Shown: one piece after another, positions 33,701 to 46,895 of the stretch
How the letters are laid out: each line of letters starts with the position of its first letter
Position numbering within the stretch: the first letter of the stretch is position 1
Assembly: GCF_041346925.1 (NCBI RefSeq)
Contig: NZ_CP166840.1
Span: forward strand, 1,550,001-1,614,000
Direction of reading: 5' to 3'
Source of the DNA: Agaribacterium sp. ZY112
GTDB taxonomy: Bacteria > Pseudomonadota > Gammaproteobacteria > Pseudomonadales > Cellvibrionaceae
Length of the DNA stretch: 64,000 bases
Made by a program: the position numbers and the translations under genes
The notes under the pieces: generated by a model
Seen by the model: only the letters and a program-made list of their open reading frames with translations
Told to the model about the DNA's origin: nothing
Database searches by the model: none

Positions 33701-33847
33701 GGGTACTCCGTTATGAAAAAGGGAGCGTAATTGTACGTCATCCACCGCTTGAGTGCAGCAAAGTCAGTTCTGGCGAGCAGTTAATGGCTCTTCTATGCTC
33801 TAAGGAGGTAGTGTCAATTGACCTACATCCATTAATTTCGGTTGAGC

Positions 33848-36448
33848 ATGCTGAATTCTTTGAGTCTAAATACTAAGATTATCGCGTTGGCGCTGCTTTG
33901 TGTATTGCCGGTAATGTTGGTAATTAGCCTATTGTTCTACGAGCAACAGAGCTTGCTTGGGCGTGATAAGGCGATGCTTAAGGAGATGGCTACAGAGTTG
34001 GTCATTGCTGAGCTTGAGCGAGAGTTAGTGCTGCGAGAGCAGGTATTAGAGGGCTTGTTGTCTAAAAATAAAACAGGAGATTTCTTTACCTATCAAAACA
34101 ACGCTAGCGCGCAGCCTCCAAGTTCACATATTTTGCATGCCGATAACAAAAAAGCGGCTACAGATCGGCAGCTATTGAAGCCAAGTTTTATCCTTACTGC
34201 CGATGTAAATGGCCGTTTATTGGAGAGTATGGAGGCTGATCCTTTACTTAAGGATTTACAGCAAGGTTTAACGCAGCCCCTTGTTTTAGGTCGTCCACAA
34301 CTGGTTTTCCTACAGGGTAAAGCCTATCTGTTATTGAGCGTGCCTTTTCAGCCCTTCTTCTCAGCCCCAAGGCCGCTTCATGCAGCCTCAGCCATTTCGA
34401 AGACTGCATGGCTGTTATCCCTAAGCGAACTTGGCTCGATATTAACACTGTGGTTTGAACAGCATGAACCGATTAGTTTTCGGCTACGTGCCAGCGGTTA
34501 TGGTGTGCCTGAAAAGGATGCTGACGGGGGTGTTAGCGTTGATTCAGAAAGTGCTGCTAGCATGCAGTATTCTGGCTCGACGGGTATTGTTTTTAATAGT
34601 CTGGCGAGCGAAGGAGGGGAGATCAGTTCAAGCCAAGAATTTGAAGTACGGGGCCTTCCTTTTAAGTTGGACTTTAATGGCGACTTGTTAAAAGTGGAGC
34701 GCGTTGCCATTTTTCCCGCGATGATCGCCTTATTGCTATTTCTGTGTGTGGCCTTGGCTGGCGCTGTTCATTACTTTCTTATTCGTAGAGTCAATGAATT
34801 AAATGATGTTGCCAAGGCTTATGCCAGTGGAGATTATGATAGTCGCGTTAAAGCTCGAGGTGATGATGAAATTGCTCAGTTGGGTTATAGCTTAAATGGC
34901 ATGTGTGCGGAGATAAGCCAGGCTCAACTCTACCTTAAAAAAATGGTCGAAGTGAGAACTCAAGAGGCTAAGCAAGCCGTTGAAAGATTACATGCCATTT
35001 TGTCTTCCGTGAATGATGCCATTATCTCGATTAATGTTGATGGTGAAATTTTGTCTTTTAATCGTTCTGCGGAGCGAATTTTTGCTTACACCGAAAAAGA
35101 TATACTTGGTAAAAGCGTTAATCTATTAATGCCTTTTACGTTCTCTGTTAAACACGACGCTTATGTTAAAAACTCACATATAGAGCCTAATCATCGCCAT
35201 AACATATGGGGGAAAGAACGAAAACTAGAGGGCAAGCGACAAACAGGTGAAACATTTCCCGTCTCTATTGCTGTAACACGAGTATGCACAGATGGTGATG
35301 TGTTTTATACAAGCGTGATACGAGATTTAAGCGAACAACAGGCTACAGAGCGAAAACTGGCAGAAAAGGAACGCTTATTTAATACCGCAATTCATACTTC
35401 CTCGCAGCCTTTTATTATTATGAGTGCGGATGGGAAATTAATGGAGGTGAATCAAGCAATGTGCTCTTGGCTTGGTTATGAACTCGAAGATTTAATGTTA
35501 CAGCGTCTTCCTGAACTTGTTTCTGATAAGCATAGAGTGGCGAATGACTCTTGCTTATCAAAAATGCGGATCGGCGAATTAACAACCGTCGTTAGAGAAG
35601 AGCAATATATCAGGCGAGATGAGTGTTTAGTATGGGGACTCATGTCGGCTACTGCCGTACAAGATGAGCAAGGTGCGGTTGCTTTATTAGTAGCACAAAT
35701 TACAGACATCGATGAAAGCAAACGCCTTGCTTTAGAGTTAGAGCAGCGCAATAAAGAATTAGAACGCAGCAATTCCGACCTAGATCAATTTGCGTATATT
35801 GCTTCTCATGACTTAAAGTCACCTTTAAATGCCATAAAGAAAATTGTTAGTTGGATTGAAGAAGACGGCAAAGAGCAGTTAAGTGAGGTCAGTCTAGATA
35901 ATATTCACTTGCTGAAAAATCGAACAGATCGAATGATGACTCTACTTAATGATTTACTGTTGTACAGTAAAGTGGGGCGCTTTGAGAGAGAGCCTGAATG
36001 TGTAGAGTTACACACATTATGCAGCAGCATCTTTGATATATTAGACAAACCAGAAGACTTTGATTTACAAGTCGAAGAATTCGAGCTCTGTGTACCCCGA
36101 GTGCCATTTGAATTGGTATTGCGAAACTTAATGAGCAACGCAATTAAGCATTACGAGGGAAGTGGCGGTCGTTTACATATTAGCGTGGGCCGTCAGCGGG
36201 GGTTTTACGTATTGCGAGTTGCCGATAATGGTCCGGGCATTGCACCGGAATTACAAAATAAAGCTTTGGAAATGTTTCAAACTTTAAAACCACGTGACAC
36301 CACCGAAGGCAGTGGCATGGGCTTGGCATTGGTTAAAAAAACAGTTGAGTATTTTAATGGATCTCTTGAAATTGATTCTGATGGTCAGAGGGGAACCACG
36401 ATGGTGGTCTATTGGCCTGAGTTAGAGTCGGTAGCGGCAGGAAAATAG
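33848..36448 (+). CDS. membrane histidine kinase with HAMP and two PAS domains
   Basis: I chose ATG 33848 over TTG 33842, giving 866 residues. TM1 near 7-30, a roughly 250-residue periplasmic domain, TM2 (MIALLLFLCVALAGAVHYFL), HAMP (YASGDYDSRVKARGDDEIAQ), two PAS domains (near 385-490 and 515-615), a Gln/Glu/Arg-rich coil, and a DHp with H654 in YIASHDLKSPLNAI. The CA domain has intact N, G1 and G2 boxes (NLMSNAIKHYEGSG, VADNGPGIAPE, GSGMGLALVKK). It ends 1 nt before the response-regulator gene, so the two form a pair linking an envelope signal to c-di-GMP. Confidence 0.9.
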   Translation: MLNSLSLNTKIIALALLCVLPVMLVISLLFYEQQSLLGRDKAMLKEMATELVIAELERELVLREQVLEGLLSKNKTGDFFTYQNNASAQPPSSHILHADNKKAATDRQLLKPSFILTADVNGRLLESMEADPLLKDLQQGLTQPLVLGRPQLVFLQGKAYLLLSVPFQPFFSAPRPLHAASAISKTAWLLSLSELGSILTLWFEQHEPISFRLRASGYGVPEKDADGGVSVDSESAASMQYSGSTGIVFNSLASEGGEISSSQEFEVRGLPFKLDFNGDLLKVERVAIFPAMIALLLFLCVALAGAVHYFLIRRVNELNDVAKAYASGDYDSRVKARGDDEIAQLGYSLNGMCAEISQAQLYLKKMVEVRTQEAKQAVERLHAILSSVNDAIISINVDGEILSFNRSAERIFAYTEKDILGKSVNLLMPFTFSVKHDAYVKNSHIEPNHRHNIWGKERKLEGKRQTGETFPVSIAVTRVCTDGDVFYTSVIRDLSEQQATERKLAEKERLFNTAIHTSSQPFIIMSADGKLMEVNQAMCSWLGYELEDLMLQRLPELVSDKHRVANDSCLSKMRIGELTTVVREEQYIRRDECLVWGLMSATAVQDEQGAVALLVAQITDIDESKRLALELEQRNKELERSNSDLDQFAYIASHDLKSPLNAIKKIVSWIEEDGKEQLSEVSLDNIHLLKNRTDRMMTLLNDLLLYSKVGRFEREPECVELHTLCSSIFDILDKPEDFDLQVEEFELCVPRVPFELVLRNLMSNAIKHYEGSGGRLHISVGRQRGFYVLRVADNGPGIAPELQNKALEMFQTLKPRDTTEGSGMGLALVKKTVEYFNGSLEIDSDGQRGTTMVVYWPELESVAAGK

Positions 36449-36449
36449 T

Positions 36450-38171
36450 ATGCGCATACTGATAGTTGATGACGACATGGTCGATAGACAAATTGTTAAG
36501 CGAGCTTTGGCTTTGGGCTCCATGTCTTATGAATTAGTGGAGGCTGAGACAGTTGATGAGGGTTTGGCCAAGTTTGAGCAAGGCAAGTTTGATCTTGTGC
36601 TTATTGATTTTCGTATGCCGGGCAAAGACGGTATTGAACTGGTACTAACTATTCGAGATACCTATAGCGATCGACGCTCTGCTATTGTCATGATGAGCAA
36701 CAGCGAAGATGAACAAGTGGCACTTGATGCTATTCGTGCAGGAGCTCAAGATTTTATCCTTAAAAACGAAATTTCAGCTTCTCGTTTACGCCGATCAATT
36801 TTACACGCACAGACTCGCTTTGAATTAGAGCAGCAGTTGCAAGAGAGTTATACCAAGCTTAAACAGCTAGCTGAAAGGGATGCTTTAACGGGGCTTGCAA
36901 ATCGCCATTTATTCGATGAGTCCTTAAAGTTAAGTATTGCCAATAATAAACGCGGAGAGCACAAGCTTGCCTTATTGTTGATTGATTTGGATAATTTTAA
37001 ATATGTAAATGATAGTTTTGGTCACGATGTTGGTGATTTATTGTTACAGAGGGTAGTGAAGCGTATCCATTCCTGTTTGCGTGGAAGTGAGTTATTTGCT
37101 CGTTTGGGAGGAGATGAGTTTGCTATTAGTTTGTCTAATCTGTCTTCAGCCAATGATGCAAGCAGAGTCGCGCAGCGTATTCTTTTAGTATTAGAAAAGC
37201 CTTTTGAAATTAATGGCCGCTCTTTTACTTCTGGAGCAAGTATTGGCATTGCCTTACACCCTGATAACGGTTTGAGCTCAGAAGATGTGGTGAAAAATGC
37301 CGACATTGCTATGTATAGGGCTAAGAAAAAAGGGAAAAATCAAGCCTGCTTTTTTGAAGAAGAAATGCAGCAGCAATTCGCCTCGCGCCATCAGGTAGAG
37401 CAAGATTTGCGTTTTGCTATAGATAACGAGCAGTTTGTTTTAACTTATCAGCCTGTGTATTCGGCTCTAAGTCATGAGTTAGGTGGCTATGAAGTTTTTT
37501 TGAAGTGGCAAGACGAACTTGGTTATCATGATCCGTCAGAATTTTTACCAATTGCTGAAGAGTCTCGACTGATTTTGCAGCTTGGCCGTTGGCTGATTGA
37601 AAAAACCATTGCTCAGCAAGCGAAGTGGGCCATAGAGCATGGGCATAAAGCCTTTATGTCTATTAATTTAAGCCCAGTACAATTAGCTGATAAAAGCCTG
37701 CCCGATTTATTGGTTGAGTTGTTTGAGCGCTACCAAACGACAGCAGATAATTTTATTTTTGAGATATCAGAACTTGCTTTAGCGGGGGTGGAAAAAGATG
37801 TTAGAGCTTGTATCGATCATCTAAGGGGCTTGGGTTGTAAGGTGGCCTTGGGTGACTTTGGTGCTGGTTTATCTTCCATTGCTAATTTGCGCGATTTCCC
37901 TTTCGATCTAATAAAAATCGAACGCAGTTTTTTACCTTCAGATACAAGCAGTAAGCAAGATAAGGCCTTGTTTGAAAGTGTGGTGAAAATGATTCAAGCC
38001 TTGGAGTTTGAAACCGTCGTGGTTGGCACTGAGACCGTTGAGCAGGTTGAGCTCTGTTGTGATTTAGGTATTAATCAATTGCAGGGCCACTTCTTTGCCC
38101 GTGCTGAATCTGCCGATTACATCGAAAATAATTATTTGATGCGTAATTTTCAAGATAATCAGGCTCTTTAA
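36450..38171 (+). CDS. REC-GGDEF-EAL response regulator, EAL probably degenerate
   Basis: 573 residues. REC: DDD at 7-9, phospho-Asp D53 and Lys near 105. GGDEF: intact active site GGDEF at 220-224 (LFARLGGDEFAIS), with the upstream I-site RxxD altered to R211-G-S-E214. EAL: the signature is EVF (348-350), DDFG is GDFG (468-471), KID is KIE (489-491), and the E-G-V-E loop is TETVE. It therefore probably makes c-di-GMP, with the EAL acting as a sensor or being inert. Phosphorylation by the preceding kinase is expected. The nearest PilZ proteins in the window are at 7612-8325. Confidence 0.92.
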   Translation: MRILIVDDDMVDRQIVKRALALGSMSYELVEAETVDEGLAKFEQGKFDLVLIDFRMPGKDGIELVLTIRDTYSDRRSAIVMMSNSEDEQVALDAIRAGAQDFILKNEISASRLRRSILHAQTRFELEQQLQESYTKLKQLAERDALTGLANRHLFDESLKLSIANNKRGEHKLALLLIDLDNFKYVNDSFGHDVGDLLLQRVVKRIHSCLRGSELFARLGGDEFAISLSNLSSANDASRVAQRILLVLEKPFEINGRSFTSGASIGIALHPDNGLSSEDVVKNADIAMYRAKKKGKNQACFFEEEMQQQFASRHQVEQDLRFAIDNEQFVLTYQPVYSALSHELGGYEVFLKWQDELGYHDPSEFLPIAEESRLILQLGRWLIEKTIAQQAKWAIEHGHKAFMSINLSPVQLADKSLPDLLVELFERYQTTADNFIFEISELALAGVEKDVRACIDHLRGLGCKVALGDFGAGLSSIANLRDFPFDLIKIERSFLPSDTSSKQDKALFESVVKMIQALEFETVVVGTETVEQVELCCDLGINQLQGHFFARAESADYIENNYLMRNFQDNQAL

Positions 38172-38183
38172 TTATTTTTTGCT

Positions 38184-38213
38184 AACCAGTTTGGCTAACG
38201 AGCCAAACTGGTT
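38184..38213. terminator. bidirectional-position terminator hairpin between convergent genes
   Basis: Perfect 13-bp stem AACCAGTTTGGCT / AGCCAAACTGGTT with loop AACG, between the convergent GGDEF-EAL gene and panB. The plus-strand downstream side is T-rich (GCTTTCGCTTTTC). Confidence 0.8.
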
Positions 38214-38225
38214 GCTTTCGCTTTT

Positions 38226-39041
38226 CTATTTAAAAATATGTTCGTCAGCGGGAAAAGCGCCGTTTTTAACATCTTGCACATAGTTAGCCATCGCATCGGG
38301 GATGTCTTTACTTTCGAGCAGGAAGTTTTTCGAGAATTTGGGTGGCTGAGCGGTCAAGCCGAGAATGTCATTGATAACCAGTACCTGAGCATCACAGTCG
38401 CGTCCGGCACCAATGCCGATGGTAGGAATACGCATTTGCGCACTGATTTCACAGGCCAGTTCATCGGGCACACATTCTAATAGCAGTATATCGGCGCCTG
38501 CAGCTTCAAGTACTTGGGCGTCTTTAATTAACTGTTGTGCGCTGTCTTTGTCGCGGCCCTGTACTCTGAAACCACCAAACTTATTTACTGATTGCGGAGT
38601 TAAACCTATGTGTGCACATACTGGGATGCCGCGATCACTAAGCTGTTTTACTGTGTCTGCTGCCCATTCACCGCCTTCTAATTTGACTAAGTGAGCCCCT
38701 GCTTGCATTAAACGGGCGGCATTGCGCATCGCTTGATCAATAGTTGCATAGCTCATAAAAGGCATGTCTCCCATGATCAAACACTTGTTGGTGCCGCGGC
38801 TGACGGCTTCAACGTGGTAGATCATGTGCTCCATGGTAACGGGCACCGTACTGTCAAAACCTAGAACGGTCATGCCGAGGCTGTCACCAACAAGGATCAC
38901 TTCGACACCGCTTTGCTCAGCCATGGCGGCCATGGGGGCGTCATAGAGGGCGACAGTGACAAACTTTTGTTTGTTTTCTTTCATTTTCTTAAGCGTTAGC
39001 AGGGTAGTCGCTTTGCTTAAGGCGGTAGAGGCGTAACTCAT
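38226..39041 (-). CDS. panB: 3-methyl-2-oxobutanoate hydroxymethyltransferase
   Basis: 271 residues, 15 nt after the deoxynucleoside-kinase gene. PanB landmarks are EVILVGDSLGMTVLGFDSTV, the PVTMEHMIYH helix, GDMPFMSYAT, and GIPVCAHIGLTPQSVNKFGG, with GIGAGRDCDAQVLV near the end. It transfers a hydroxymethyl group from methylene-tetrahydrofolate to 2-oxoisovalerate, the first committed step of pantothenate synthesis. Its usual partner panC does not follow; the next gene converges on it. Confidence 0.97.
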   Translation of the reverse strand: MSYASTALSKATTLLTLKKMKENKQKFVTVALYDAPMAAMAEQSGVEVILVGDSLGMTVLGFDSTVPVTMEHMIYHVEAVSRGTNKCLIMGDMPFMSYATIDQAMRNAARLMQAGAHLVKLEGGEWAADTVKQLSDRGIPVCAHIGLTPQSVNKFGGFRVQGRDKDSAQQLIKDAQVLEAAGADILLLECVPDELACEISAQMRIPTIGIGAGRDCDAQVLVINDILGLTAQPPKFSKNFLLESKDIPDAMANYVQDVKNGAFPADEHIFK

Positions 39042-39056
39042 GATGGGGTCTCGCAG

Positions 39057-39734
39057 TTAAAACATGGCCGACTTTGGGTTGTAGTAGTGGCGGCCCGAGC
39101 GAATATTCAACATATATTGGACTAGGTCTTGGTAGTCCTGCTCGTTGTTTGTCCAGTCTATTTCGGTTGCATTAATGATTAGCAAAGGGCTTTGATCATA
39201 AAAATGGAAAAAGCGTGCATAGGCATCATTTAATGCGTTGAGGTAGTCGTTGCTAATTTTTTGTTCATTGGCAGCACCACGGCTTTCAATACGGCTCTGT
39301 AACACATCTATAGGTGCTTGAAGGTAGATAACTAAATCGGGTATCGGCGCTTCAATGTGCATTTGTTTATGCACTTGTTGATAGAGTTCGTGCTCGTCTT
39401 TATCTAGGGTGATCTCGGCAAAGAGAGGGTCCTTATCGATGAGGAAGTCGGCAACATGGGCGCTCTCAAACAGCTCGCCACGGTGCAGCTCATTGAGCTG
39501 CTGTACTCGCTGAAACAAAAAAAACAGTTGGGTAGGTAGGGCGCTATTGCTTTCATTATTGTAAAAGCGCTCTAAAAATGGGTTGTCCTCGACTTGTTCC
39601 AGTAAGGTTTCATAGTTTAGTGTTTCAGCTAGGCGTTTGGCGAGTGAGGTTTTGCCAACACCAATACAGCCTTCGATAGCGATATAGGGGCGTTTTTGGT
39701 TTGTTAGCTCATCCGTGTTGGGGCTGTCACTCAC
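39057..39734 (-). CDS. deoxynucleoside kinase (deoxyadenosine/deoxycytidine/deoxyguanosine type)
   Basis: GTG start in a GTGA overlap with the folK stop; 225 residues. A P-loop GCIGVGKTSLAKRLAE and the DFLIDKDPLFAEITLD segment (equivalent to the D-x-x-x-x-K-D-x-x-F pattern), plus DLVIYLQAPIDVLQSRIESR (lid Arg), define the dCK/dGK family. It phosphorylates deoxynucleosides for salvage; the base specificity is not deducible. It lies inserted between folK and panB, where Pseudomonas has these two genes adjacent. Confidence 0.9.
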   Translation of the reverse strand: MSDSPNTDELTNQKRPYIAIEGCIGVGKTSLAKRLAETLNYETLLEQVEDNPFLERFYNNESNSALPTQLFFLFQRVQQLNELHRGELFESAHVADFLIDKDPLFAEITLDKDEHELYQQVHKQMHIEAPIPDLVIYLQAPIDVLQSRIESRGAANEQKISNDYLNALNDAYARFFHFYDQSPLLIINATEIDWTNNEQDYQDLVQYMLNIRSGRHYYNPKSAMF

Positions 39735-40231
39735 TCGCTTTCCTCACTTGCCTTTAATTGCCAAAGGCCGCCATCAGAAAGCTGGGAAGCCAAGGTTTCT
39801 ATACGGCCTAAACCCTCAATTTCAAGCTCTGGGTTTAGCTCGCGCCAAGGCCATAATACAAAATTTCGTTCAGCAATTCTTGGGTGCGGCAGCATTAATT
39901 CTGCTTGGTTGCTGTTGCGCCCTTCGAACCAAAGTAGGTCTAGGTCTAGGGTGCGAGCCCCCCAGCGAATAATGCGCTTGCGCCCGCAGTCGGCTTCGAT
40001 CTTGTGAAAGCAAGCCAATAGATCTTCTGCACTGAGTTCGGTCTGTAATTCAGCTACGCCGTTAACGTAGTCGGGTTGTTCGCCTGGGCCTACGGCGGTG
40101 CTGCCGTACCAAGACGAGCGCCGAAGAAACTGAATATCGGGGTTTTGTTTGAGTTGCTCTATGGCATACTGCAATTGCTCAAGGGGCTGGTTTAAGTTCG
40201 CACCTAGCCCACAGTAGGCAAGTTTAGTCAT
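39731..40231 (-). CDS. folK: 7,8-dihydro-6-hydroxymethylpterin pyrophosphokinase
   Basis: I chose ATG 40231, which overlaps the pcnB stop by 8 nt and starts TKLAYCGLGANLNQPLEQL, the usual FolK N-terminus; a longer in-frame start at 40294 lies inside pcnB. The 166-residue protein has YGSTAVGPGEQPDYVNGVAE, then the HPPK signature RWGARTLDLDLLWFE. It transfers pyrophosphate from ATP to the pterin in folate synthesis. Translation is likely coupled to pcnB and to the deoxynucleoside-kinase gene. Confidence 0.95.
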   Translation of the reverse strand: MTKLAYCGLGANLNQPLEQLQYAIEQLKQNPDIQFLRRSSWYGSTAVGPGEQPDYVNGVAELQTELSAEDLLACFHKIEADCGRKRIIRWGARTLDLDLLWFEGRNSNQAELMLPHPRIAERNFVLWPWRELNPELEIEGLGRIETLASQLSDGGLWQLKASEESE

Positions 40232-41579
40232 GTTGAGGCTTATTGGTTTTGCGTCGGCGTGTGCGTGGCTTGCGTCGTTTTCGAGGTGTGCCACTGTTTT
40301 TGGCTTGTTCTAATAGAGCTTGGCGCTGTTCTTCATTGCCAAATTGGAATTCCGTCCACCACTGGCCGAGTTGAGCTAGATCTTCGCCGCTTTGCTCACG
40401 CAATAAAACAAAGTCGTAAGCGGCGCGAAAGCGCGGGTGCTCAAGTAAGCTTGTTGCGCGGCGTTCATCGCGCTTTGGAAGGCGTAATTGTAAAGTCCAA
40501 ATTTCACGCATGGGTATCAAGAAACGCTTCGGAATAGCCGTTCGTTGCAGCTGTTCAGAGATGACACCGGTCGCGGCACGGTTCATCAGCTCTTGTTCTC
40601 CGCCTCGGTGTTGGGTGCGCATGGCTTCCATTTGTTCTTGTAGTTGAGGCCATAAGAATGCTGCGTAGATAAATGCTGGAGTGACACGTTTGTTTTGAGC
40701 AAGGCGTTGATCTGTATTCGCTGCTGCGCAGCGCAAGAGTTTTTGAGCCTGTTCATTGTTGCCACAGAGTACCTTGGAGGCAGCAGGGAATAAGTGTTCC
40801 AGAAGGTGGAAGTTATGTAACTCTTCAAGAATCCTTTCAGCTTTGCCACTTAAAAAGAGTTTTAGAACCTCTTCAAATAGGCGTGCGGAAGGAATTTCTA
40901 GCAGGTAATTACTGTGTTCTCTAATTGGCTGCTCAGTTGCTTCGTCGAGTTCGAATCCGAGTTTGCTCTTAAAGCGTATGGCCCGCAACATGCGCACTGG
41001 ATCTTCTTTATAGCGAGCATCTGGATCGCCAATGATGCTCAGCTTTCGCTGCTGCAAGTCTTCAAGGCCGTTGCAGTAATCGATAATGCTTTCGCTGCTT
41101 GGGTCGTAATACAGAGCGTTGATGCTGAAATCTCGACGAAAAGCGTCGGAGCGTAAATCCCCATAGACGTTGTCGCGTAATAATATGCCTTTATCGCTTT
41201 GTACGGCATGGCGCTTGCCCGCTGCGTCATCGTGCGAGCCGCGAAAGGTGGTGACTTCAAGGACTTCTCGGCCCATGCGCACATGTACAATTTTAAAGCG
41301 GCGGCCAATAATGCGGGCGCGTTTAAAGACGTGTTGCACTTGTTCGGGCGTGGCATTGGTTGCTACATCGAAGTCTTTTGGGTGGCCACCGAGTAAGGTG
41401 TCTCTTACGCCGCCGCCAACTAAGTATGCTTCCCAGCCGGCCTCTTGTAGCTGTTCGATCACTCGCAAAGCATTGTAGCTGAGGTCTCGTTTCTTAATGC
41501 CGTGAATATCCACACCGATTAGACGGGGTTCTGTGGCAGCGTTGTCTGAGCGAAATAAGTTTTTTAATTTTCTAAGCAT
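40224..41579 (-). CDS. pcnB: poly(A) polymerase I
   Basis: 451 residues. Nucleotidyltransferase motifs are AYLVGGGVRDTLLGGHPKDF with the catalytic DFD in HPKDFDVAT, and the second Asp in FSINALYYDPS. The head is DIHGIKKRDLSYNALRVIEQ and the tail is strongly basic (RKRRKPRTRRRKTNKPQHD), as expected for RNA binding. It adds poly(A) tails to RNA and promotes decay. In Pseudomonas the crcZ RNA gene precedes pcnB; here the gap upstream (41580-42402) also holds a CrcZ-like element. Confidence 0.97.
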   Translation of the reverse strand: MLRKLKNLFRSDNAATEPRLIGVDIHGIKKRDLSYNALRVIEQLQEAGWEAYLVGGGVRDTLLGGHPKDFDVATNATPEQVQHVFKRARIIGRRFKIVHVRMGREVLEVTTFRGSHDDAAGKRHAVQSDKGILLRDNVYGDLRSDAFRRDFSINALYYDPSSESIIDYCNGLEDLQQRKLSIIGDPDARYKEDPVRMLRAIRFKSKLGFELDEATEQPIREHSNYLLEIPSARLFEEVLKLFLSGKAERILEELHNFHLLEHLFPAASKVLCGNNEQAQKLLRCAAANTDQRLAQNKRVTPAFIYAAFLWPQLQEQMEAMRTQHRGGEQELMNRAATGVISEQLQRTAIPKRFLIPMREIWTLQLRLPKRDERRATSLLEHPRFRAAYDFVLLREQSGEDLAQLGQWWTEFQFGNEEQRQALLEQAKNSGTPRKRRKPRTRRRKTNKPQHD

Positions 41580-41690
41580 AGGCAGTGTAACGAGGGGCCA
41601 TCCTAGTTGGTAGGGCTCGTGAATTGGCGGATTCTACCACAGCTTGAGCGGAGGCGGCATTTGAGTGTCGTTAACAGTGTTTGAGGTCGG
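41580..41690 (-). promoter_or_regulatory. probable pcnB promoter region
   Basis: 111 bases between the CrcZ-like RNA terminator and the pcnB ATG. No ORF. Its own pcnB promoter is expected here because the upstream RNA ends at a strong terminator; specific boxes were not assigned. Confidence 0.35.
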
Positions 41691-41722
41691 AAACGAAAAC
41701 GGGAAAGCATAGGCTTTCCCGT
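41691..41722 (-). terminator. Rho-independent terminator of the CrcZ-like RNA
   Basis: On the minus strand the stem ACGGGAAAGC / GCTTTCCCGT has loop CTAT and is followed by TTTCGTTT. It separates the RNA from pcnB. Confidence 0.92.
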
Positions 41723-41875
41723 CGAATTCGGTTTTTATTCTTATTTAAAGATATTCAACATCCATGTCCGATATAGCTGCTTTTTCAAGCCTGACCTTTC
41801 CAAAGGTTCGCAAGTCGGTTCTACGTCGTTTTTTGTTCTTTATTGTTATTTTTAGTTGTTAATCAGTTTTCTATA

Positions 41876-41938
41876 TTTTTATTATTTATTGTTGTTATGT
41901 CAGTTATTTGTCTTTTTTATTATTTATTGTTGTTATGT
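41876..41938. repeat. exact 25-bp direct repeat within the CrcZ-like RNA
   Basis: The 25-base TTTTTATTATTTATTGTTGT(TATGT) occurs at 41876-41900 and again at 41914-41938, 38 nt apart. On the minus strand each copy starts ACATAACAACAATAAATAA, i.e. a CA-motif block. Confidence 0.95.
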
Positions 41939-42033
41939 AAGTAGTTTGTCTTTTCTTATTATTGTTTATTGTTCTTATTAGCTATGTTGTCTTTTGTTTT
42001 TATTCTTTATTGTTTTTATTATGTCGCTAATAA

Positions 42034-42050
42034 GAGCATGTGGCGTGCCA
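42034..42050 (-). promoter_or_regulatory. sigma-54 promoter (-24/-12) for the CrcZ-like RNA
   Basis: Read on the minus strand: TGGCACGCCACATGCTC. GG and GC are separated by exactly 10 nt, and TGGCACG-N4-ATGCT matches the consensus TGGCACG-N4-TTGCT at all but one base. The predicted start is about 42025. Confidence 0.88.
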
Positions 42051-42147
42051 ATATATAAAAAGCCAATTAAAACAACTGGTTAGCTTGTTTGGGGGCTGTT
42101 CTTATTCCCTTTTGGAATGGTGGGTCGTTACCATATGTGCCGAGGTT

Positions 42148-42174
42148 TGTTACTGGGGCTACACAGGGGTAACA
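42148..42174. promoter_or_regulatory. candidate CbrB upstream activating dyad
   Basis: TGTTAC (42148-42153) and GTAACA (42169-42174) form a 6-bp inverted repeat with a 15-nt spacer, centred about 136 nt upstream of the predicted RNA start. A further GTTAC half-site is at 42127-42131. As I recall, CbrB sites in Pseudomonas crcZ promoters are described as a TGTTAC/GTAACA dyad of similar spacing; this should be checked. Confidence 0.6.
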
Positions 42175-42402
42175 CGAAGGGTAGGCTTCGGATTTAGAGT
42201 GAGAGTCGCTAATTGTAAGGACTTTCAGCTGGTTCTGATGTTTGGACTGCTTATTGGAGGGCTTGCTTTGGGAAAAGTTCACTCAGTATGAGAAAAAGCT
42301 TGAGCACTAGGGTAGCAAGTATGAGCCTCCCACCACTTCATTTGGGTGAGAAGCTTGATAATTGGCTACTTTAAGCTTGTATAGGAGGTTAAGAGGGGGG
42401 GC

Positions 42403-43791
42403 TTAAGCCTTTTTACCTTGTGTTGGTTTTTGGCGGGGGATGCCTAGGCGCTGGCGTCGTTCCCATAAGCACTTGCGGCTAACACCTAACTTTTTCGCAA
42501 GTTCGGTTTCACTCATGTGATCTTGATGTTCAAGCACAAAACGCTGGAAATAGTCTTCAAGGCTTAAGTCTTCATGGGCTTCAGCCGTTGGCGCTGGATT
42601 GGCGTTTGTTTCACTAGCGCCTGAATCAACGCGCACAAGTTCGTGCTCAATAGCTAGCTGGGTGTGATCGATGGCCTTTTCGTTGTCACAGAGAATGACA
42701 GAGCGTTGCATCGCATTTTCAAGCTCGCGGATGTTACCGGGCCAAGGGTAGGTGGTAATGGCTTGAATAGCTTCAGGCGTGAGGCTTAAAGGCGGTCTAA
42801 GCATTTCGGTACAGAAGCGTTTAATAAAAGTTTCAGCAAGTAACAAGATGTCTTTGCCGCGCTCGCGTAGCGGCGGTAAGCGCAGCTGTACAACGTTGAT
42901 GCGGAAATATAAGTCTTCGCGGAACTTGCCTTCTCTAGCTAGGGTTGCGAGGTCGCGATGGGTGGCGGCGACGAGCCTAACATCTACTTTGTGGCTTTCG
43001 GTGGAGCCTATAGGCCTGACTTCGCCTTCTTGTAGTACTCGCAGCAAGCGAGCTTGCGCTTCAAGAGGTAGTTCGCCAATCTCATCTAAGAACAGTGTAC
43101 CTCCATCTGCTGCAGCGACTAAGCCTTCTCGGTTTGATGCGGCCCCTGTAAAGGCTCCTTTTTCATGGCCAAAGAGTTCGGCCTCGATCAGGGTTTCAGG
43201 GATTGCTGCGCAGTTAACGCTGATTAGTGCTTTGTCTTTGCGTGGGCTTTCACTGTGGATGGCATTGGCAACGAGTTCTTTACCTGTGCCCGTTTCACCC
43301 AAGACTAATACTGTTGCAGAGGTTGGAGCGACTTTGTGAATTTTGCCGTAGACCTCGCGCATGATGGCGCTGCTGCCAATCATTCCCTCGATGGGAGTGT
43401 CTTTTTCTTCTGCTGGTCTGCGGTTTGCTGCTGCAGCTGACTTGATGCTTTTGCCTAATACACGTTTAACCGCAGCAATCATCTCTTCGTGATCAAAGGG
43501 TTTGGCGACATAATCAACCGCGCCCATACGCATAGAGTCTACGGCTGAGCGTAGGCTGGCGTAGCTGGTCATGATAAGGACGGGTACATCACCGGCCAGT
43601 TTAATTAGGTCTGTACCGGGAGCGCCAGGCAGGCGTAGATCACTGATAATAAGGTCAAAGGTATCTATTTTTTGCTTGGTCGCTTCTGCGACTGAGCCGG
43701 TTTCCACGACTTCATATTTATTGCGACTTAATAGTTTGCGTAGTGCGGTACGAATGATGACTTCGTCTTCAACAATTAAAATCTTGCTCAT
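42403..43791 (-). CDS. cbrB: sigma-54-dependent NtrC-family response regulator CbrB
   Basis: 462 residues. REC with phospho-Asp D51 (LIISDLRLPG), sigma-54 AAA+ with Walker A GETGTGKELVANAIHSES and the GAFTGA loop in GHEKGAFTGAASNREG, and a Fis-type HTH (SETELAKKLGVSRKCLWERR). It lies just after the SSS-type kinase gene and before the CrcZ-like RNA, as in Pseudomonas. By that synteny it activates the RNA promoter at 42034-42050 with sigma-54. The LRSAVDSMRMGAVDYVAKPF signature closely matches CbrB. Confidence 0.93.
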   Translation of the reverse strand: MSKILIVEDEVIIRTALRKLLSRNKYEVVETGSVAEATKQKIDTFDLIISDLRLPGAPGTDLIKLAGDVPVLIMTSYASLRSAVDSMRMGAVDYVAKPFDHEEMIAAVKRVLGKSIKSAAAANRRPAEEKDTPIEGMIGSSAIMREVYGKIHKVAPTSATVLVLGETGTGKELVANAIHSESPRKDKALISVNCAAIPETLIEAELFGHEKGAFTGAASNREGLVAAADGGTLFLDEIGELPLEAQARLLRVLQEGEVRPIGSTESHKVDVRLVAATHRDLATLAREGKFREDLYFRINVVQLRLPPLRERGKDILLLAETFIKRFCTEMLRPPLSLTPEAIQAITTYPWPGNIRELENAMQRSVILCDNEKAIDHTQLAIEHELVRVDSGASETNANPAPTAEAHEDLSLEDYFQRFVLEHQDHMSETELAKKLGVSRKCLWERRQRLGIPRQKPTQGKKA

Positions 43792-43910
43792 AGTCGTGTT
43801 ACCTAGATCTCCTCATTAACAACTCACGCATTTAGCTTATCGCTAGCGGAGGCGGTATCTGCAAGCCAAATTGACCTGCAGCGGGAGTTTATTATTAGGC
43901 CCAAAGGGCT

Positions 43911-46895
43911 TTAGTTAGATGTGCTAGTGTTACTTAGGGTCTCAGTAGATGCAAGAGCGCTGGGCAAATTTATCACAAACTTTGTGCCTTTCTGTAACAC
44001 CCTATCTGTAGGGCTTATGATTTCCATTTGTCCTCCGTGGTCTTCAATAATGCTGTAGACCATAGCAAGGCCAAGGCCTGTGCCTTCTCCAGGCTCTTTG
44101 GTGGTAAAAAAGGGCTCTAAGATACGACCCTGTATCTCTGCAGGAATACCTGGACCTTCATCAATAACCGCAAACTGAACATCCTTATCGATACGATCAA
44201 CAACAACACTGACCTTGGTGCCCTCGGGGCAGGCGTCGCGTGCATTGCCAAGTAGATTAACAAACACTTGTATAAGGCGCTGGCTGTCACCGCTAACTCG
44301 AACGTATTCGGGCACATCGTTTACAAACTGCATTTGAGCTTTTTCTTTTTGTAAGGCAATTAGATTGATGCCTTCTTGGGCGCAGTCTCGAAGGTTTACG
44401 GCTTCTAGTTCACTGCCTCGATTGTGGCCAGCGTGGCTAAAGCTGACTAGTGAGTGAACAATGCGGCTGACTCGCTTGGTCTGGCTTAGAATTTGGTCAG
44501 CGGTTTCTAGGATCTCTGGATCATCGGTTTCGTATTTTAAGATTTGAGCAAGGCTGTCGATGCCAGTGACCGGATTGCCGATTTCATGGGCTACTCCTGC
44601 CGCAAGACGGCCGACGGAGGCTAGGCGTTCACTGTGCAGTAGTTCGTTTTCGAGCATTTGTAGTTCGGTAACATCTTCGAGCAATATGACTTGTCCATCG
44701 ACTTGGTGCTCAAGAGATGATGGGATGCTGGCCTTATGTAAGTTGAGCCAGCGCTCGCTATCGGCAATTTCAATAAGCTGTTTGTGCTGGTGGTTTTCAC
44801 TTAAGTCAGCAAAAGACGCCAGTAGGGGCCCCCAGGGTTCTAATACATCATCTAAGCGTGAACCTCTAACCTGCTCGCTGGCAATGCCGCTTAGGTTTTG
44901 CATAGCATGATTCCACATAAGGACTTCGCGGTCTTTGCCGACGCTGAGGCCGGCCATGGGTAGCTTTTCTAAGGTGCGTCGGTGGTACAGGCGCAAGCTA
45001 TCTAGCTCTGCAGTAAGTCCGCTTAAGTGGTCGCGATAGTGGTGTAGGCGTTCTTCGATCAGGTTAATATCGGTTGCCCCTTCAACTTCGGGTACGCGCA
45101 ATGGAATCAGGGTATCCATAATTTCGGTGGCCAGAGAGATGCCTAATAAGCCGCTGAGGTTGGCTTCAATTTCATCTCTAAGGCGGCGCAGTGCATAAGG
45201 GCGTCTTTCATTGGGGTTGAGCCCCAATTCGCCTAGAGCTCGGTGGACTTCAATGCGGGCGGTGTTTTGGCCAATACGCTCACTGAGCCGTTCAACCATC
45301 TCTTCTGGGTCGCGAATATCCAGCACCATTCTTACTGGGTGGCTGAGCTCATCTTCAGAGCAGAGTTCGGCTGAGTAGCGCTCTTCATTACTTTGTTTTG
45401 TGAGCAACGAAATAATGACAAAGCTGCCGACATTCAGTGCTGTTGACCACAGGGCGATATCGCTCCAGGCACTCATGCCTATAGTGATACTTAAGTCAGC
45501 AAAGCCGAGAGCAAACGTGTGTTCACCGATGTAAATAGGCAGCAATAGACCTGCGGCCCATATGCCCATGCCCAGGCCTAGGCCAGTCAATAAACCTTGG
45601 CGGTTTGCGCCTGCCCAATGGGTAACGCAGATAATACCGGGCAATAATTGCAGGGCTGCGATAAAGGCCATGAGTGCAAGGTCACTTAAGCTGTAGCGGT
45701 GTTCAAGTGCGCTATAAAAAACATAAGCTAGGGCAATAATGGCCAGAACTAAGCCGCGACGAATGGTAACGATCTGGCCGTAGAGTTCACTTTTGGAGCT
45801 GAGTGAGGCTGCAGGCAAAATCCACTGATTCATCACCATCGTAGATATGGCTAGGCAGATCGAGACAATCGCTCCAGTAGCGGCACTTAAGCCTGCGACA
45901 AAACTGATGATGGTGAAGGTAGGGCTTTCGGCTAGTAGCGGCACTGCGAGTGAGTAGTACTCGCTTGGAATGCTACTGCCAAATTGCTGCCCGGCCCAGA
46001 GGATGGGGAAGATGGGTAATGCCATTAACAGCATAAAGAGTGGGAAGGCCCACGTCACGGTGTACGTTGAGTGGCGTAAGGGATTTTCAACCACGGCCAT
46101 GTGGAAAATGTGAGGCATGGCTACGGCAGTTGAAAGGAAGATCAGTAGCAGGGTATGGCTTTCTGAGTTCTTTAATGGTGCGTAGAGCTCATCGAGCTTT
46201 TCTGGGTTTTCCACCAGCCATTGGTCGAGGCCGCTCACACCACCAAAGACGGCATAGAGGCAAAAACCACCAACGGCAAGCATGCCAAATAACTTAACGA
46301 CGGATTCAAAAGCCATTGCTGTAATTAGGCCTTTATGGTGTTCTCTGTTAGCGCCAAATACCAATGCAAAACAAGCGATCACAATACAATAAACCAAGGC
46401 TAGGGCATCGCGAGTATCAAAGCTGTCGAGGCCGCGTTCAATATCGTGGCTGCTGCTGGTCAGTAGTACGATGGTGTCGGCAACCGCTTGAATCTGCAGG
46501 CTTAAAAGTGGCAGTACAGATAGGAGCATGCAGAGCGTCACTAAGCCGCCGACTTCGTGGCTGTGGTAGCGAAAGGTTAGCAAGTCGGCCATCGAGGTGA
46601 TTTGAAAGCGCCGAGCCAGTTCGATCAGGGGTTTGAGAGCGACAGGAGCAAATAGAAAAAGCATGCCTGTGCCCATGTAATACGCTAAGGCGCCGTAGCC
46701 AAAGTCATCAGCAAACTCGATAACACCGTAATAGCTCACCGCACTCGCAAAGATACCCAGTGAGAGGATGTACATCACTGGGTGTGAGGCAACCTTGCTT
46801 GGGATAATGTTTCGTTCTGTCGCCCAAGCAATAGAAAATAGGATGCTGAGGTAAATAAGACAGATTAAGGCAACGTCAAAAAAACTAAAGCTCAT
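43911..46895 (-). CDS. cbrA: CbrA, sodium-solute symporter-like histidine kinase
   Basis: 994 residues. About 13 hydrophobic segments in residues 1-505 form an SSS-family module ([24 protein letters not shown] repeats; [19 protein letters not shown]). A cytosolic linker, a PAS region (near 640-740), a DHp with H770 in [19 protein letters not shown] and a CA domain ([35 protein letters not shown]) follow. The domain order matches CbrA, the membrane kinase of the CbrAB carbon/nitrogen-balance system; the SSS part can bind or move histidine in Pseudomonas. The 60-residue gene upstream overlaps it by 11 nt. Confidence 0.93.

Follow-up and report, generated by a model that had tools for sequence, protein, structure and literature searches.

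Is the CbrAB-crcZ locus confined to the Pseudomonadaceae, or does the gap between cbrB and pcnB in a member of the Cellvibrionaceae also hold a crcZ gene? The question was raised by a 64,000-nt stretch of the Agaribacterium sp. ZY112 genome (the window), in which a reading of the sequence alone had placed a CrcZ-type decoy RNA. Passages of PMC8871633 describe the locus in Pseudomonas and Azotobacter alone and call it unique to Pseudomonadaceae, and CbrAB is called exclusive to that family in a passage of PMC6296734. Among the matches listed from the openly licensed literature, we found no description of CrcZ or CbrAB outside Pseudomonadaceae. NCBI puts the Cellvibrionaceae in the Cellvibrionales, a separate order from Pseudomonadaceae; in what follows, order means the GTDB grouping, which unites Cellvibrionaceae with Pseudomonas-type genomes. 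We consider it highly probable that the cbrB-pcnB gap of this bacterium, which does not belong to the Pseudomonadaceae, holds its crcZ gene, encoding a CbrAB- and sigma-54-driven decoy for Hfq (with Crc).

The minus strand of the locus encodes, in order, gluQRS, cbrA, cbrB, the candidate RNA, pcnB, folK, a nucleotide-kinase-like gene with weak matches below cut-off, and panB. The cbrA gene (43911..46895, minus strand) codes for a 994-aa sensor histidine kinase, 46% identical across its whole length to its match in G043, a genome with an RF01675 CrcZ. The N-terminal half is similar to the transporter portion of CbrA; Pfam at E 0.001 listed the kinase domains HisKA and HATPase_c alone and no transporter domain. 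The 462-aa product of cbrB (42403..43791, minus strand) was identified by its receiver and sigma-54 activator domains, its position beside CbrA and its 62% identity to Pseudomonas fildesensis CbrB. pcnB (40224..41579, minus strand) matches TIGR01942 with 523.7 bits. These identifications bear out the crcZ-like position proposed for the RNA gene, between cbrB and pcnB and on the strand of both. The cbrB-pcnB gap is 823 nt long and contains, from 5' to 3', CbrB subsites F1, R1 and R2, an IHF-like site, a sigma-54 promoter and an A-rich stretch, followed by a structured 3' part and then a terminator. Elsewhere in the window (33842-38171, plus strand), the list of open reading frames, judged by eye, has a sensor-kinase-like ORF directly followed by a REC-GGDEF-EAL-like ORF.

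The claimed GG-N10-GC sigma-54 promoter is present as the near-consensus site TGGCACGCCACATGCT (TGGCACG-N4-ATGCT; 42035..42050, minus strand), and the transcript is expected to start near 42024. Three CbrB subsites are predicted upstream on the same strand: F1 (TGTTAC, 42169..42174), R1 (GTAACA, 42148..42153) 21 nt from F1, and R2 (GTAACG, 42126..42131), with 22 nt to R1 and 81 nt to the sigma-54 site. The IHF-like site TAACCAGTTGTTT (42070..42082, minus strand) has one mismatch to YAANNNNTTGATW, which we take to be the IHF consensus and used to score such sites. The F site TGTTAC, the CbrB subsites and assistance by IHF are described for crcZ in a passage of PMC6296734.

We surveyed the same elements in 57 family loci in which three or more A-rich motifs come after a strict sigma-54 site. 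The F-R1 pair is found in 56 of them (shuffles: mean 0.02, maximum 1) and all three subsites in 51. Spacing in the family is 19-23 nt for F-R1, 21-23 nt for R1-R2 and 80-92 nt (median 80) for R2 to the sigma-54 site. In seven Pseudomonadaceae loci (L068, L071-L074, L083, L086) the corresponding distances are 20-23, 21-22 and 81-82 nt, placing the CbrB-IHF-sigma-54 spacing of the Agaribacterium locus (21/22/81 nt) within 1-2 nt of Pseudomonas crcZ. In 51 of the 57 family loci we found an IHF-like site with no more than one mismatch (mononucleotide shuffles: mean 6.3, maximum 12). The best match precedes the sigma-54 site by 32 or 33 nt in 55 of the 57, and four of the seven Pseudomonadaceae loci have an IHF-like site with one mismatch. 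Halomonas maura (L087) has the sigma-54 site and the motifs and lacks the F-R1-R2 spacing. Alone, the F-R pair is not specific: it occurs at four places in the genome, and a reversed control pattern occurs three times forward and once reverse. Of these four places, the one in the window is the sole one whose locus includes a strict sigma-54 site. Promoter and subsites F1, R1 and R2 stand together at the candidate gene, as at a CrcZ-type gene.

In three loci of one genus (L227, L231, L232) the -12 element of the sigma-54 site reads GT rather than GC (TGGCACGCTAAATGTA or similar), and the A-rich RNA is present. In L064 and L053, two tandem sigma-54 sites lie in one cbrB-pcnB gap with AAN motifs after each, possibly two crcZ copies side by side. 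At L083:4977-5037, the match to Rfam P36 (RF01679, 'Pseudomonas sRNA') coincides with the CbrB subsites (TGTTAC...GTAACA...GTAACG) upstream of crcZ. There P36 thus marks promoter DNA, not necessarily a separate sRNA; it perhaps also marks the cbrB terminator.

The proposed RNA (41691..42024, minus strand) would be about 334 nt long. The sequence-only reading had counted at least six AANAAN clusters in about 335 nt; we found 11 non-overlapping AANAANAA in 42025-41691 on the minus strand. The runner-up separate stretch has four in a genome sample of 464 kb (the window plus 400 kb), read on both strands as 36,574 overlapping windows of 335 nt. Within the RNA, the predicted Hfq-binding array (41830..42020, minus strand) consists of AAN-triplet units whose cores start at 42014, 41973, 41931, 41893 and 41847. 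Across 56 family RNAs, the junction between two AAN-AAN runs contains a single extra A in 135 cases and two extra A in two cases, and is one base short in seven; uninterrupted AAN runs of four occur 148 times. The number of one-extra-A units per RNA ranges from 0 to 5 (0 in 3 RNAs, 3 in 19, 5 in 3), and the Agaribacterium RNA is one of the three with five. Spacing between units is regular, with 69 of 82 distances within 32-46 nt, 28 of exactly 41 nt and a median of 41 nt.

An origin of the array as an A-rich stretch that arose by chance or mutation and persisted through drift is extremely improbable. Runner-up stretches in the genome sample do reach 44% A, as such a reading would have it. Against it, the 198-nt A-rich segment (66% A) carries more motifs than shuffles of the same segment: 10 AANAANAA versus 5.8 +/- 1.5 after dinucleotide shuffling (10 is reached in 2 of 1000 shuffles), and eight of the stricter AAYAAYAA versus 1.6 (0 of 1000). 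The same one-extra-A units also recur in 53 of the 56 family RNAs, mostly at the spacing given above. Like CrcZ-type RNAs, the candidate thus has several A-rich (ARN)n stretches fitting the Hfq distal face. Passages of PMC4063720 and PMC9890229 describe six ARN triplets held by the distal face and Hfq-Crc structures with skipped A-sites. We infer one Hfq hexamer per array unit. Near start codons (-35..+20), AANAANAA is found in 25 of 337 sampled genes; per 25-nt bin around those starts the highest count is 17 (0..+24), slightly higher than the 2-14 of the others, and the scan singled out no Hfq targets.

The RNA gene ends in an intrinsic terminator (41698..41723, minus strand) with an 11-pair stem and a T tail, as had been claimed. 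Terminator-like sites in the region number 2 versus 3.5 expected in shuffles, i.e. they show no excess. The stem GGGAAAGC recurs in 12 of 32 picked terminators, and GGGAAAG is found in 19 of the 32 terminators of a second set. On the minus strand pcnB comes after the stretch, as it would if the stretch were a pcnB leader (5' UTR) or an A-rich spacer and no separate decoy RNA. We regard that explanation as very unlikely: the strong terminator separates the stretch from pcnB, the CbrB-IHF-sigma-54 promoter is its own and is conserved in place, and the RNA is also found in L221, L231 and L236, where no pcnB was found in the fetched stretch. A GGA-spaced ORF of at least 20 codons occurs in 20 of 55 RNAs.

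How far does the CrcZ-type arrangement of cbrB and an A-rich RNA extend? CbrA has a full-length match in 36 of 38 genomes, Agaribacterium included. A strong match (E 1e-150) is found in 118 of 120 family genomes, a few of the matches being pieces at contig ends, and in all 106 of the 106 family genomes with good completeness. Sequence downstream of cbrA was fetched for 25 family loci (Agaribacterium included), 13 loci of other families in the order, 40 further family loci and 18 loci outside the order; a cbrB match was present in 17 of these 18. Downstream of cbrB, a 350-nt span with at least five motifs is present in 59 of the 65 family loci, Agaribacterium included (22 of 25 and 37 of 40), in 6 of the 13 loci of other families in the order, and in none of the 17 CbrAB loci fetched outside the order. 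Gilvimarinus gilvus (L082) and Halomonas maura (L087) are named examples of loci with the RNA. When a strict sigma-54 site just before the motifs is also required, the counts are 22 of 25 and 32 of 40 for the family, 5 of 13 for the other families and 0 of 17 outside the order. Of the six family exceptions, L038 reaches a contig end, L041, L218, L220 and L240 are without pcnB in the fetched stretch and L054 has four motifs. The other-family loci below five motifs are short or motif-poor, run into a contig end, or have no pcnB in the part that was fetched. The AANAAN enrichment in the cbrB-pcnB gap of relatives, whose absence had been set beforehand as grounds for rejecting the CrcZ-type reading, is therefore present, and the locus does reach a wider group than Pseudomonas, as had been suggested.

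Outside the order, 18 of 33 CbrA matches were followed downstream (L190-L207). The L205 stretch ended before cbrB, and that of L191 reaches 736 nt past it. The 17 cbrB matches are 52-59% identical in 16 genomes and 35% in L207. Neither pcnB nor an A-rich RNA was found in the fetched downstream stretches. CbrAB thus extends beyond the order, and the RNA beside cbrB was seen within the order alone. These data contradict the exclusivity of CbrAB-CrcZ to Pseudomonadaceae.

The RNA had been thought too diverged for an easy sequence search, and the Rfam CrcZ model indeed misses it. Rfam CrcZ has no match in 38000-46000 up to E 10; the three Rfam matches listed for that search lie elsewhere, are weak and are unrelated to the candidate. 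RF01675, with a gathering score of 95 bits, has no match in the genome at E 0.001, nor in L066 up to E 1; a family member, L034, gives 24.8 bits (E 0.0078). Like CrcZ of Pseudomonas and Azotobacter (RF01675), the candidate has its place between cbrB and pcnB, the CbrB subsites with their spacing, the sigma-54 promoter, several A-rich Hfq motifs, the terminator and a UUGGA-type element. It differs in length (about 334 nt versus 407 nt in P. aeruginosa), in the regular spacing of its units about 41 nt apart with a one-A step between two AAN runs, and in a CANGGANG site that is present in Cellvibrionaceae RNAs and was not seen in L083 and L086. P. aeruginosa CrcZ has six A-rich stretches according to a passage of PMC4063720. 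The sequence-only reading had held that motif content and flanks were all that remained, making the RNA a functional analogue. That part did not stand, since the CbrB-IHF-sigma-54 spacing and the UUGGA-type element are kept as well. As the promoter spacing matches that of Pseudomonas and the UUGGA-type element stands at the corresponding place, common descent is likelier than mere analogy. Judged by place, promoter and parts, the gene is very likely an ortholog of crcZ beyond the reach of the Rfam model.

The CrcY and CrcX RNAs of P. putida, A. vinelandii and P. syringae are also CbrB-controlled Hfq-Crc decoys, and are further copies elsewhere in the genome. In the Agaribacterium genome, a model of the 3' element found this copy alone plus one chance-level match (E 0.5); a copy without the element would escape it.

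The genome encodes CbrA, CbrB, RpoN, Hfq, Crc and CsrA. A search for crc had been proposed as a check, and Crc was found (L077:1411-2175, minus strand; 254 aa) adjoining a phosphoribosyltransferase gene that we took for pyrE. Its best PDB match is P. aeruginosa Crc (236.8 bits), followed by the 'exonuclease III' 2myi (230.8 bits), the putative exodeoxyribonuclease 4b5h (181.6) and other exonucleases (at most 121.7). Its motifs are LQD, CGNWAMA and SSH, versus LQD, CGSLYVA and SQH in P. aeruginosa Crc and LQE, CGDLNVA and SDH in the XthA-like protein of the same genome. These three motifs are presumably catalytic in nucleases. They are altered at the same places as in P. aeruginosa Crc, and the protein is nearer Crc than exonuclease III. 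At E 1e-30, 115 of the order's 145 genomes have Crc-like proteins, in a search that lumps Crc with its nuclease relatives. Hfq (85 aa) has one match in the genome, which thus encodes both Hfq and Crc as expected for a CrcZ-type system. For CsrA, two matches pass the curated cut-off and three are weaker; the csrA genes that pass it, together with one of the weaker ones, lie at G000:C1 2412217, 2172047 and 1986352 (L181-L183). Place, promoter, motif content, terminator, relatives and the crc and hfq genes together support the CrcZ-type reading.

Downstream of the array, the RNA has a second conserved part. CCGACT (41813..41818, minus strand), a variant of a CTGACT box, stands just before a first GGA hairpin, ACCUUUGGAAAGGU (41794..41807, minus strand), which has UUGGA at its loop (Rsm/CsrA-like site 1) and a place matching that of the UUGGAGAGG element of Pseudomonas CrcZ. 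A second candidate site, CAUGGAUG (41759..41766, minus strand), conforms to CANGGANG, the core of the CsrA/RsmA consensus, given as A/U-CANGGANG-U/A in a passage of PMC6849547.

Tests for GGA in hairpin loops and for CTGACT were defined on a discovery set of 20 RNAs and then applied to a held-out set of 32, with dinucleotide shuffles as control. The discovery set comprises 20 of the 25 family loci (L035, L038, L041, L050 and L054 were left out, having no terminator found or no RNA), and the held-out set 32 of the 40 (L218, L220 and L240 had fewer than four motifs; no terminator was found in L228, L238, L239, L243 and L248). In the discovery set, GGA in a hairpin loop was counted 29 times versus 10.1 expected (0 of 300 shuffles) and UUGGA was found in 10 RNAs versus 3.0 (0 of 300). 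Total GGA (56 versus 49.6 expected, 31 of 300) and RNAs with at least two GGA (17 versus 15.5) were unremarkable in this set. The held-out set gave 43 GGA in loops versus 15.7 expected (0 of 300), UUGGA in 13 RNAs versus 5.1, CTGACT in 22 versus 0.76, and the control AGG in loops 16 times versus 14.6 (117 of 300). CANGGANG is present in 41 of the 52 RNAs (14 of 20 and 27 of 32) versus 0.7 and 1.1 expected; the maximum of 500 shuffles was 4 in the first set and 5 in the second, and the reversed and complementary motifs gave 0. As CANGGANG was named after both sets had been viewed, its second-set count is no held-out test; the consensus itself is published. All loci are related, and the second set has close pairs (e.g. 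L229/L247), so the shuffle counts overstate significance. In the genome sample CANGGANG has a frequency of 0.018 per 140 nt.

The GGA of CANGGANG is predicted to be unpaired with a mean probability of 0.72 in the 44 of 55 RNAs that have the motif; the value for the remaining G of those segments is 0.36. In Agaribacterium the three GGA bases of CAUGGAUG have values of 0.74, 0.41 and 0.51 and the local hairpin is weak. RNAalifold gave no consensus base pair in the 3'-element alignments A1 (12 sequences) and A2 (27 sequences), and we therefore claim no covariation. The stem register differs between clades, with compensatory-looking changes by eye (GGACA/UGUCC, GGGGC/GCCCC). As A2 was picked by a pattern requiring GGA and [CG]ANGGA, these are invariant in it by construction.

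Outside the family, CANGGANG was not found in 11 of the 13 RNAs read and is present in L087 (Halomonas maura) and L208. UUGGA follows CUAACUGAUUCUU in all five RF01675 loci read on the given strand (L068, L071-L074) and in the RF01675 consensus; at the corresponding place Cellvibrionaceae RNAs have CUGACU...UUGGAGAG or variants. Of 20 loci outside the family, the 3'-element model matched one (L074, 15.1 bits, E 0.0015), and homology of the element with Pseudomonas thus relies chiefly on the UUGGA common to both and on its position. In P. aeruginosa CrcZ, RsmN binds a UUGGA half and RsmA an AGGGA half, as a passage of PMC6061880 reports.

Might the RNA be CbrB-activated and work chiefly through pairing with mRNAs, or chiefly as a sponge for CsrA/Rsm, and have in Hfq a mere chaperone? 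Neither the CTGACT box nor CANGGANG, frequent as they are, is needed for Hfq titration. Like RsmY, RsmZ and CsrB, the RNA has GGA in hairpin loops and the CsrA/RsmA consensus. Dedicated CsrA sponges such as RsmZ and CsrB have many GGA hairpins. The candidate, unlike them, has two candidate GGA sites and CbrB-type control sites, and the AAN array is its longest conserved part. Such a mode of action is therefore decidedly improbable as the main one. Besides its proposed role as an Hfq decoy, the RNA may, with less confidence, bind CsrA through the 3' domain, which suggests a link between Hfq/Crc control and CsrA control. This link is the most interesting part of our interpretation and the least certain.

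Gene order, promoter parts and their spacing, motif enrichment, the terminator, conservation and the partner genes listed above were read from sequence; phosphorylation, transcription, Hfq-Crc binding and relief of catabolite repression are carried over from Pseudomonas. By analogy, CbrA would phosphorylate CbrB when good carbon sources are exhausted. CbrB on F1-R1-R2, with IHF bending the DNA, would then activate sigma-54 RNA polymerase at 42050-42035. The transcript, about 334 nt long, would present about five A-rich units, each able to occupy the distal face of one Hfq hexamer, and would pull Hfq (with Crc) off mRNAs whose translation Hfq blocks, relieving catabolite repression. We give even chances to a two-headed CrcZ in Cellvibrionaceae, with a regular array of modules of about 41 nt at the 5' side, each taking up one Hfq hexamer with Crc, and a two-GGA domain capturing a CsrA/RsmA dimer at the 3' side, and with the Rsm contact of P. 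aeruginosa as the remnant of a stronger ancestral link. Carbon limitation would in that case release Hfq/Crc and CsrA control together via CbrAB.

The spacing of AAN units by about 41 nt and the 3' domain with GGA hairpin loops and CANGGANG are new here. Such distant sequences let the working parts of CrcZ be read, and the conserved CsrA consensus turns the binding of RsmA and RsmN to P. aeruginosa CrcZ into an evolutionary prediction. The CbrAB-crcZ locus is near-universal in a second family, one that NCBI puts in another order, and gives these bacteria a concrete, testable mechanism of carbon-source choice.
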